61,732 bases of DNA from a bacterium (GTDB taxonomy: Bacteria > Hydrothermota > Tepidihabitantia > B3-TA06), in assembly GCA_012517375.1 (NCBI GenBank), contig JAAYVC010000006.1, positions 1 through 61,732 of the forward strand. Direction: 5' to 3'. The notes under the pieces were generated by a model, which was not told the origin of the DNA, searched no databases, and was given only the letters and a program-made list of their open reading frames with translations. Of the stretch, positions 57,833 through 61,283 are shown in pieces. Within the stretch, counting starts at the first letter, position 1, and every line of letters starts with the position of its first letter. The translations under genes were made by a program, and so were the position numbers.

Positions 57833-58483
57833 ATGAAGAAAATAATGATGCTTTCAATAATCTGCTTTGCAGCCTTGAGCTTGCTTAACTGCGGAGATAA
57901 AACAACCAAGAACGAGCCTGGAAAAATGGAGAATGTAGAAATGAAAAAAGGAGAACCGGATGCTTTCGGAATCGGTCGCTACACCGGTCAGTCAACCGTT
58001 ACAGACAGGCAGAAGATAGCGGCTGAGGTCAAGGACGTTGAGATACCTCTTGCGGGCACCGAAAAAGCCACCATAGAAACCAACAAGGGAACTATCATCG
58101 CTGAGCTTTACTCGAAGGATGCGCCTAAAACGGTCGCAAATTTCATTCGTCTTTCAGAGTCCGGCTTTTATGACGGGCTTATATGGCACCGCTTCGAGCC
58201 CGGGTTCGTCATTCAGGGCGGCGACCCCAAAGGCAACGGCACAGGCGATGCGGGCTACAACATTGTCTTCGAGAAGAACAGCCGCAAGCACGAACTAGGC
58301 GCTCTGGGCGTTGCCCGCTCCGAGGACCCCAACTCCGGCTCATGTCAGTTCTATATCTGTCTTTCGCCTCAGCCCGGCCTCGACGGCTCCTACGTTGTTT
58401 TCGGCAAGGTGCTTGAAGGCATGGATGTCGCCCAGAAGATTCGCGTAGGCGACGAGATCACGAAGATTTCAATCAGCAAGTAA
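57833..58483 (+). CDS. Cyclophilin-type peptidyl-prolyl isomerase 1, probable lipoprotein
   Basis: 216 residues. N-terminal signal ending LSLLNC suggests a lipid-anchored protein, though Asn at -1 is unusual. The cyclophilin core from ~75: [62 protein letters not shown]; catalytic Arg in WHRFEPGF and Gln in QFYI are kept. A short compact PPIase that probably folds exported proteins. Stop overlaps the next start (TAATG). Confidence 0.9.
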
Positions 58484-59061
58484 TGCGTATCTTAAAGCTC
58501 GGTTTTCTTGTTGCCTCGGCGATTCTTTTAGCGCCGGCATGCAGAAAGGTAGTGAAACCTGCGACCTCGCTCACGCCTTCCGAGCGCGTACAGCTTGCCT
58601 TGCGTGTAAAGGATTCGCCTGTTACGCTTACAGGCAAAGAGGAAGCGCACGTCGAAACGAACAAGGGTGCGTTCACGTTCAAGCTTTACTCCGACGAGGC
58701 GCCCAACACGGTTCGCAACTTCGTGCGTCTTGCAGACGCCGGCTTCTACAACGGACTCATCTGGCACCGCTACGTTGGCAGCTTCGTTATTCAGGGCGGC
58801 GACCCGTTGGGCACAGGATACGGCAACTCAGGATATACGATAGACTACGAAGAGTCCGGAATGAAGCATGACAAGGGCGCCGTAGGCATGGCTCGCGGCC
58901 CGGACAAGAACTCGGCCTCCTGCCAGTTCTACATCTGCCTTGAAGCGGCTCCAAGTTTAAACGGCAGCTACTGCGTGTTTGGAATCGTAACCGACGGCAT
59001 GAAGGTCGTAAAAGAGCTAAGAGAGCAGGATACAATAAGGAGCATTACGATTACGAGATAA
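58483..59061 (+). CDS. Cyclophilin-type peptidyl-prolyl isomerase 2, probable lipoprotein
   Basis: 192 residues, paralogue of the upstream gene and translationally coupled to it. Signal with LLAPAC lipobox (Cys 20). Core [63 protein letters not shown]. Tandem lipoprotein cyclophilins suggest an important envelope-folding task, perhaps for the many exported beta-rich proteins coded nearby (inference). Confidence 0.9.
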   Translation: MRILKLGFLVASAILLAPACRKVVKPATSLTPSERVQLALRVKDSPVTLTGKEEAHVETNKGAFTFKLYSDEAPNTVRNFVRLADAGFYNGLIWHRYVGSFVIQGGDPLGTGYGNSGYTIDYEESGMKHDKGAVGMARGPDKNSASCQFYICLEAAPSLNGSYCVFGIVTDGMKVVKELREQDTIRSITITR

Positions 59062-59238: not shown

Positions 59239-59266
59239 TTGACATATGCAGTTTTTTTTTTACAAT
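59239..59266 (+). promoter_or_regulatory. Promoter with a T10 tract in the spacer
   Basis: TTGACA (59239-59244), 16-base spacer, TACAAT (59261-59266). The spacer ends in nine T residues that run into the first T of the -10 box, so slipped replication would change the spacing. Confidence 0.72.
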
Positions 59267-59276
59267 CAAGGCATAG

Positions 59277-59300
59277 ACGAGAAGCGATGAAGCTTCTCGT
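59277..59300 (+). promoter_or_regulatory. Leader hairpin before the aromatic-rich gene
   Basis: ACGAGAAGC and its exact inverse (9 pairs, 6-base loop) sit just after the transcription start. The ribosome site GGAG lies 10 bases downstream and stays free. It may stabilise the mRNA. Confidence 0.55.
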
Positions 59301-59319
59301 TCTAACCTAGGAGAAAATC

Positions 59320-59758: not shown

Positions 59759-59782
59759 GGGCGGCGGATTTCACCGCCGCCC
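59759..59782 (+). terminator. GC-rich hairpin after the aromatic-rich gene
   Basis: GGGCGGCGG with its exact inverse (9 pairs, 6-base loop) right after the stop; no T-tract follows, so it may be a weak or factor-assisted terminator or a 3' stabiliser. The next promoter begins four bases later. Confidence 0.55.
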
Positions 59783-59785
59783 GGC

Positions 59786-59813
59786 TTGACATAAGATGGA
59801 TCTAAGCTATTCT
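59786..59813 (+). promoter_or_regulatory. Promoter of the right-end propeller gene
   Basis: TTGACA (59786-59791), 16-base spacer, TATTCT (59808-59813); 18-base leader with AGGAGG. Confidence 0.72.
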
Positions 59814-59831: not shown

Positions 59832-61283
59832 ATGCCGAAACGTGCTCTCTTATTCCTCTTTTCAGGTTTCTTTATCTTCGTACATGCGGGATGGATAAAG
59901 ACTTACGGCGAACATGTCGCGGTTTATGGCTTGTGGGTAGAGCGTACCTCAGACTCAGGATATATAATCGCCGGTGCAGACAACGACACCACTCACAACT
60001 TATTTACATCTAAGCCTTTCGGTGCAAGCCTTATTCTTGTTAAAACGGATTCTCTTGGCGACACATTGTGGACCAAGCTTTACAAGGACTCCCAGAATTC
60101 GTTATTTGCTTGGGGTCGCTGCATTCAAAAGACGGCAGACGGAGAGTACATCGCCACGGGTTCAGGAGGTGGTCTGTGGCTTCTGAGGCTCGACGATCAA
60201 GGCGACACGTTATGGACTAAAATGGTTAAACAAGAATATCAATCAGCCGACGGTTACTGCGTTAGATGCCTTGAGGACGGTTATGTGGTTTCAGGGCAGA
60301 TGCAGTACGAAGAACTCACTTTCTACATAATAAGATTTGATACGACAGGCGACACGCTTTGGTCGCGTTCCTACGGCCGAGGCTTTGGTACGACCATCGG
60401 TTTTTCAATTCAGCCTGCAGCCGACGGTGGATTCATTGTAACGGGTTCAGGACCGGAAAAGGGTTTGTGGATACTCAGGACCGACTCGCTTGGCGATACG
60501 CTCTGGACTAAGCTTTACAAACTTGGCGATCCTTTAACGTACGACGAGGGGCACTCTATAGAACCGACATCTGATGGAGGGTGGATAATAACGGGCGCAG
60601 TCGATTACAGCCCCGCCGAATACGGAGCAATAGCGCTCATGAAGATAGACTCTCTAGGCGACACGTTATGGACGAAGTATTACGATTACAGTGCTGCGGA
60701 CGAGGACGGTCGGTCGGTCAAACAGACGCCGGACGGCGGATTCATAGTCGTTGCGACAAAAGACTATTCAATGCTAGGCAAAGGCTCTATATGGCTTCTT
60801 AAGACCGATTCGGCGGGCGATACTCTCTGGACGCGCACGTACGGCGGCAAGCTCCAGGATCGCGGGGACTGCATTCAGCTAACTCCTGACGGAGGTTTCA
60901 TCATCACAGGTTTCACTGAATCATTCAGCCCTGACGGTTCAAAACAAGTTTTGCTCATGAAGCTCGATTCGCTGGGCCTTTTAGGAATCGCAGAACCCGT
61001 AACACCCGTAGCACCCGTCCTCCCCCTCCTAGAGATAGATAAATCTCTCGGACGAGAAGTAACCTTGCGCTATTCCAACTTCCCTCACGGCTTCCATGCC
61101 TGCATATACGACGCATCAGGAAGAAGAGTTGATGAGCTGCACTCATCACAGACTCATGGCACAATCCAATGGGGAGGAGGGCGTGGGTGTTACGGGTGTT
61201 ACGGGTGTTACGGGCCTGGAGTGTACTTCATCGTCGCTGATAGAGGTTCGAGGCAGGTCGAAAAGGTAGTGCTCGTAAAGTAG
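59832..61283 (+). CDS. Secreted beta-propeller protein with C-terminal sorting domain
   Basis: 483 residues. Signal peptide (MPKRALLFLFSGFFIFVHAG), then about seven blades each marked by T-x-DGGxIxTG and a TDSLGDTLWTKxY turn, resembling the partial gene at the left edge. A Pro/Val linker (PVTPVAPV) leads to a FlgD-like sorting domain (YDASGRRVDEL...GVYFIVAD...KVVLVK). A CYGCYGCYG insertion from a 9-base repeat interrupts the sorting domain just before GVYF. Ligand unknown; likely surface-exposed. Confidence 0.85.
   Translation: MPKRALLFLFSGFFIFVHAGWIKTYGEHVAVYGLWVERTSDSGYIIAGADNDTTHNLFTSKPFGASLILVKTDSLGDTLWTKLYKDSQNSLFAWGRCIQKTADGEYIATGSGGGLWLLRLDDQGDTLWTKMVKQEYQSADGYCVRCLEDGYVVSGQMQYEELTFYIIRFDTTGDTLWSRSYGRGFGTTIGFSIQPAADGGFIVTGSGPEKGLWILRTDSLGDTLWTKLYKLGDPLTYDEGHSIEPTSDGGWIITGAVDYSPAEYGAIALMKIDSLGDTLWTKYYDYSAADEDGRSVKQTPDGGFIVVATKDYSMLGKGSIWLLKTDSAGDTLWTRTYGGKLQDRGDCIQLTPDGGFIITGFTESFSPDGSKQVLLMKLDSLGLLGIAEPVTPVAPVLPLLEIDKSLGREVTLRYSNFPHGFHACIYDASGRRVDELHSSQTHGTIQWGGGRGCYGCYGCYGPGVYFIVADRGSRQVEKVVLVK
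60996..61020 (+). repeat. Short tandem repeat CCCGTAACA-type in the linker
   Basis: CCCGTAACA, CCCGTAGCA, CCCGTCC in a row code for the PVTPVAPV linker. The unit is the reverse complement of the repeat at 61188-61214. Confidence 0.7.
61188..61214 (+). repeat. 9-base tandem repeat (TGTTACGGG x3)
   Basis: Three exact copies of TGTTACGGG code for CYGCYGCYG inside the sorting domain. Copy number changes would keep the frame. Confidence 0.85.

Follow-up and report, generated by a model that had tools for sequence, protein, structure and literature searches.

Does the run of ten T residues in the promoter of an exported aromatic-rich protein act as a switch? The window, by which we mean the whole 61,732-nucleotide stretch analyzed here, is contig C6 of G000, a 2.54-Mb draft genome in 125 contigs. 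The initial annotation singled out the promoter of a 141-residue protein in this window as a candidate phase-variable element and argued that, if the organism demands a 16-base spacer, gain or loss of a single T would turn the gene down. The sequence is exactly as that annotation described: the homopolymer lies between the -35 and -10 hexamers, and it fills the end of the spacer such that its final T is also base 1 of TACAAT (Table 1). The transcribed leader can form a hairpin (folding of 59268-59319 gave -19.7 kcal/mol, z -4.1), which is retained with other letters in the paralogous copies on contigs C109 and C16. The GC-rich inverted repeat that follows the coding region probably ends the transcript and so insulates the next gene; as that gene has its own tract-free promoter behind the repeat, the candidate switch is probably limited to the 141-residue protein. 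Upstream, positions 57833-59061 of the window hold two adjoining cyclophilin-type peptidyl-prolyl isomerase genes, the first of which has a lipoprotein-like signal.

Table 1 Features of the tract promoter and of the two-gene cassette in the window.
Feature	Position	Strand	Basis
-35 hexamer TTGACA, 6/6	59239..59244	+	sequence
Spacer, 16 bases, the usual length in the genome (66/93 non-tract promoters)	59245..59260	+	
T10 tract, candidate slippage site; T9, T11 and T12 in paralogs	59252..59261	+	
-10 hexamer TACAAT, 5/6	59261..59266	+	sequence
5'UTR hairpin, directly before the ribosome-binding site	59274..59304	+	
Ribosome-binding site AGGAG	59309..59313	+	sequence
Exported aromatic-rich protein, 141 aa	59320..59745	+	
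GC-rich inverted repeat GGGCGGCGG / CCGCCGCCC, probable transcript end	59759..59782	+	sequence
Separate, tract-free promoter of the next gene, TTGACA-16-TATTCT	59786..59813	+	
Exported repeat protein, 483 aa, second cassette gene	59832..61283	+	

The window promoter region matches three more places in the same genome, on contigs C73, C109 and C16, where the tracts are T9, T11 and T12, respectively, and it is mainly tract length that differs among these four promoters of aromatic-rich family A. Measured up to TACAAT, the spacers are 16 bases in the window copy, 14 in C73, 16 in C109 and 17 in C16 (for C73 we used the value of 14 set by TACAAT in place of the 20 returned by the greedy match of the script). 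The C109 and C16 promoters are identical over the 24 bases 5' and the 45 bases 3' of the tract, and over these 69 flanking bases the sole difference between them is one T within the tract. A gene of the 483-residue repeat type is also found 3' of both of these copies. The C73 copy (L128 4266-4457) is a mosaic in which a promoter and signal peptide of the window type are joined to a body 100% identical to that of C16 over 43 residues; as it lies at a contig end, recombination and mis-assembly are indistinguishable there. More generally, copies frequently end at contig edges within shared sequence and hence their gene bodies are possibly mis-joined. Each tract's contig has its own upstream flank, and as these flanks differ, the copies are separate loci.

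The prediction of the initial annotation depends on the spacer length that this organism prefers. The pattern TTGACA-N13-19-TANAAT gave 217 sites in the genome and 4 in the reversed control, and the norm was taken from 100 listed of the 217 sites, 93 of which lack an A/T run of at least seven. The spacers of these 93 ordinary promoters are of 14 (2), 15 (3), 16 (66), 17 (16), 18 (2) or 19 (4) bases, whereas those of the 17 tract promoters found in the genome (defined below) are of 13 (2), 14 (4), 16 (2), 17 (5), 18 (2), 19 (1) or 20 (1) bases, all spacer lengths and export labels in our counts being those read from match listings. The 16-base class is thus depleted among the tract promoters (p 6e-6), also in the strict subset having tracts of at least 9 and only TANAAT as the -10 hexamer (2 of 11, p 0.001). 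Hence, the organism prefers 16 bases and the tracts carry promoters off this norm. The supposed demand for 16 bases therefore stands insofar as 16 is a real optimum, but it is too strict, as 17 is the second commonest length. Likewise, the claim that a change of one T turns the gene down fares better for loss than for gain. Judged by these spacer lengths, loss (giving 15 or 14) is likelier to be OFF, whereas gain may only lower expression: one added T makes a 17-base spacer of the kind used by ordinary promoters, which may be tolerated, and full OFF probably needs T loss or larger gains.

The window tract is one of many. There are 44 distinct T-tracts of at least nine on either strand of the genome and 14 of them lie in TTGACA...TANNNT spacers, where 0.02 would be expected from base composition. 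The narrower pattern TTGACA-N1-8-T9-N0-5-TANNNT had 10 matches in the genome and none in the reversed control, and its A-tract version had 4 matches versus none in the control. Every one of the 8 tracts of at least 11 sits in a promoter spacer, whereas among tracts of 9-10 this holds for 6 of 36 (p 1.7e-5). A general habit of T-rich spacers was considered and rejected, as T is only mildly enriched at positions 11-15 of 16-base promoters (0.33-0.45) and only 7 of the 100 listed sites have an A/T run of at least seven. Our set of 17 tract promoters is composed of the 14 with T-tracts of at least nine plus three shorter or mixed relatives, all of family B: C32 (T7), C37 (T8) and C35 (G8T8). The T7 spacers of C14, C60, C82 and C97, which have exactly 16 bases, were treated as ordinary and excluded. 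As the 17 promoters belong to about nine gene families, they are not 17 independent cases.

Family B gives the same picture as family A in that near-identical promoters differ in tract length, and hence in spacer, a comparison which in both families is between paralogous loci only. The promoters C32, C37, C85, C111 and C35 have zero or one substitution in the 22 upstream bases and a tract of 8 to 15 nt, the tracts among these near-identical promoters being T7, T8, T11, T12 and G8T8. The last of these, upstream of 1832-2380 on the minus strand of C35, has G8 followed by T8 within a 20-base spacer, and this double homopolymer may reflect one tract replacing another.

Genes behind the tract promoters were scored by a crude export rule that takes a ribosome-binding site, the best-scoring frame and a hydrophobic stretch among the N-terminal 38 residues. 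The controls were 60 of the listed non-tract promoters, each taken with some 640 bases of following sequence; 17 of these were without a called gene, and 15 of the 43 genes called were export- or membrane-like. Behind the tract promoters all 16 genes called by the script were export-like. For C16 the script called none, its start being weak, and this copy was counted as exported by clear paralogy, which gives 17 of 17 versus the 15 of 43 controls (p 1.5e-6). When counted by gene family the ratio is 9 of 9 versus the same controls (p 0.0004). The families behind the tracts include the aromatic-rich family A, family B, a lipoprotein together with an outer-membrane-like protein (C54), a lipoprotein (C78) and others. 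The gene behind the T9 promoter of C94 (L121 1421-2051) stops after 104 residues and seems to be continued in another frame; it is perhaps a frameshifted copy.

The 141-residue window protein has an N-terminal hydrophobic signal-like segment and no family match in Pfam or NCBIfam. Its structural model (mean pLDDT 78, pTM 0.68, 6 sequences) is a small eight-stranded beta barrel that follows the signal segment. The model resembles the barrels of TbpB and fHbp (Z 9.6 and 9.5) over about 100 residues at 8-11% identity (rmsd 2.8 for the match of highest Z), designed barrels and Ail are close behind (Z 8.5-9.0), and Foldseek gave a best E-value of 0.011. The family B model (mean pLDDT 84) is likewise an eight-stranded barrel, the nearest structures being NspA, Ail and OmpX (Z 11.9-11.3). 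At the level of the models these likenesses to surface proteins are fold resemblance rather than family assignment, and families A and B fit exported barrel proteins, some of them perhaps in the outer membrane. By sequence, the product of the second cassette gene appears weakly similar to SBBP / delta-60 beta-propeller repeat proteins, with scores well below the cut-offs of NF047494 (23.4 bits, cut-off 400) and TIGR02608 (17.8, cut-off 76.5). Two genes of G002 that resemble it have poly-G promoter spacers (C5 and C42).

Family A has 47 matches in all, and a search of a wider genome contig collection with its profile gave 58 candidates, none of which was confirmed. Outside the four tract copies of G000, a spacer homopolymer was present in 2 of the 21 family A homologs examined, and no homopolymer of at least seven was found in 18 of these 21 upstream regions; the G9 of G003:C400 lies downstream of the promoter. 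In total, 6 of the 25 family A members with an upstream region seen (including the four in G000) carry a spacer homopolymer, and many of the members that lack one sit within tandem arrays. Two arrays of small family-A-like exported proteins are found in G000 itself (C115:4990-7841 and C79:3793-11888), and no homopolymer was present upstream of the two C115 array members checked. These arrays are expanded exported barrel-like families.

In family B the base of the tract is not constant. The family B profile matched 32 times, in 7 of 21 genomes, each of which belongs to the window's own family (f1), and in the wider contig collection it found six loci, all in MAGs of Candidatus Stahlbacteria/WOR-3. 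Fifteen of the 26 listed family B upstream regions have a homopolymer of at least seven between the hexamers, seven of which are of T, three of G, four of C and one of G8T8; the remaining regions either carry a C- or T-rich spacer with interruptions, such as the C-rich 16-base one of G006:C138, or lack one. Exchange of the tract base is also seen between homologs: an A13 tract (G000:C54) corresponds to a tract of nine C residues (G001:C79) before lipoproteins that are 41% identical over 218 residues, and a tract of seven C residues (G001:C65) corresponds to T10 (G003:C393) before proteins that are 64% identical over 132 residues. That the homopolymer is kept while its base changes is as expected if slippage itself is selected.

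Poly-G and poly-C spacers were searched for in 41 genomes, with 17 and 12 matches, respectively, when overlapping ends are counted, versus 5 and 1 in the reversed control. Among the f1 relatives there are 24 tract promoters, 4 of which are at 16 bases as counted against the norm of G000, from which the relatives' own norms may differ. Three of the 24 are without a called gene and 18 of the other 21 are export-like, a count that keeps the script label of a 41-residue non-exported frame for G002:C1, where a family B gene is present. The A/T-tract spacers that other families of the class possess are at 16 bases in 14 of 20 instances, and 5 of the 14 genes called behind them are export-like. Off-norm spacing is therefore no general property of T-tract spacers. 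A second WOR-3 family, f6 (G027, G029, G033 and G039), has eight poly-G spacers (L164-L167, L171, L172, L174 and L175) of 13-18 bases, one of the eight being at 16, and their products are mostly exported. These f6 promoters suggest that the system predates any one family or else originated twice.

Could the tracts be explained without switching? A fixed T-tract might be rigid, bent or easily melted and thereby give a strong promoter for an abundant exported protein, with its length drifting neutrally. The 5'UTR hairpin would fit such a highly expressed gene, and the 16-base T-tract spacers that other families of the class have in front of ordinary genes are of the fixed kind that this explanation calls for. 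However, a role of T-tract DNA structure does not predict that T should give way to G, C or A at this position, and promoters that depart from the 16-base norm should be weakened rather than strengthened. We consider this explanation unlikely. Somewhat less credible still is that the dispersed near-identical copies form an antigenic-variation set that recombines, the tracts being passengers that slip without counter-selection. The C73 mosaic is what recombination would produce, the shared sequence of several copies runs into a contig edge and some of the off-norm copies are possibly silent donors, but the mosaic, being at a contig end, is possibly an assembly join, and tracts are also found on lipoproteins and other genes that have no near-identical copies (C78, C71b, C94 and C38).

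A draft MAG in many contigs, with many of the copies near contig ends, also raises the question of whether the tract lengths stem from errors made in sequencing or assembly, or from strain variants that were left unmerged. Such errors would neither place every one of the longest tracts in promoter spacers nor yield T7 versus T12, and G or C tracts are seen in homologs from other assemblies; we thus give this possibility very little weight. As for a chance homopolymer in an ordinary promoter, the single T7 spacers of exactly 16 bases look like just that, but for the tract-promoter set the genome-wide excess over base composition and the empty reversed control refute the chance, single-site view, to which we assign practically no probability.

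Promoter-spacer phase variation of the porA/vlp type is the probable explanation. The window T10 would then belong to a set of about 17 homopolymer spacers, hypermutable and located in sigma-70-type promoters. Slipped-strand replication would lengthen or shorten the tract by a base or a few, and this would bring the hexamers out of, or back into, the 16-17 base spacing preferred by RNA polymerase, such that each exported protein would be switched at random and reversibly between high and low or no transcription. From the spacer lengths the window copy (16) is predicted to be ON, and C73 (14), C32 and C37 (13) and C35 (20) are predicted to be OFF. The slippage switch proposed by the initial annotation is strongly backed by comparison, in the T9/T10/T11/T12 series of paralogs, the tract-only difference between C109 and C16, the exclusively exported products, the off-optimum spacers and the G, C or A tracts found instead of T in homologs. 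Beyond these comparisons we infer within-population variation of tract length, control of expression by that length and an outward-facing position of the products. Some observations count against promoter-spacer phase variation: the same T9 in nearly identical promoters is shared by two related species (G005:C126 and G006:C95), tracts are few in family A, and homopolymer spacers also precede some non-exported genes (G001:C56, a response regulator, and G007:C83).

Known systems provide parallels. In Neisseria meningitidis porA, poly-G lies between the -35 and -10 hexamers, with 11G giving high expression, 10G about 2-fold lower and 9G 13-fold lower expression (PMC3639595). Both systems have the homopolymer in the spacer, and the porA product is a surface protein, but porA is one gene whereas about 17 promoters are involved in one genome here and the base changes between homologs; moreover, graded expression has been demonstrated for porA and is a prediction here. 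The vlp genes of Mycoplasma hyorhinis have poly-A in every promoter and show ON/OFF switching (PMC10502178, citing Citti and Wise 1995). They are alike in being a multigene exported family in which each gene has its own promoter homopolymer, but they encode lipoproteins of a host-adapted pathogen and use base A only, whereas in this uncultured lineage the tracts stand before several exported families that are unrelated, and across the family every one of the four bases is used. Clones of one Helicobacter pylori strain carry 13-16 T in the slipping poly-T of the sabA promoter region (PMC2715451), and whether the surface adhesin encoded by Haemophilus influenzae hia is expressed at a high or a low level depends on a promoter T(n) (PMC11475388). 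Slipping or expression-setting T-tracts in adhesin promoter regions are the likeness, and the difference is that each is a single gene, sabA having a second repeat in its coding region.

The WOR-3 lineage is known almost only from metagenomes and has no known host. Among open-licence full texts no paper was found that joins WOR-3 or Stahlbacteria with phase variation, and a word search of two Stahlbacteria papers (PMC12542636 and PMC12285271) returned nothing on phase variation, homopolymers or promoters. Relative to the known systems, what is new is the lineage, how many promoters are involved and that the tract base is exchanged between homologs. Phase variation by simple repeats has been presented as a typical feature of bacterial pathogens with small genomes (PMC11475388). 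The broader reading, which we favor by a modest degree, is that this uncultured environmental lineage has a genome-wide stochastic surface repertoire in which unrelated exported barrel and lipoprotein families stand behind homopolymer spacers and slipperiness rather than sequence is selected. The features found here, an any-base spacer homopolymer, off-norm spacing and an exported product, provide a sequence rule to find such systems in MAGs. If the reading is true, random surface switching also serves bacteria without a known host, where it would perhaps be of benefit against phages or predators, or for attachment.
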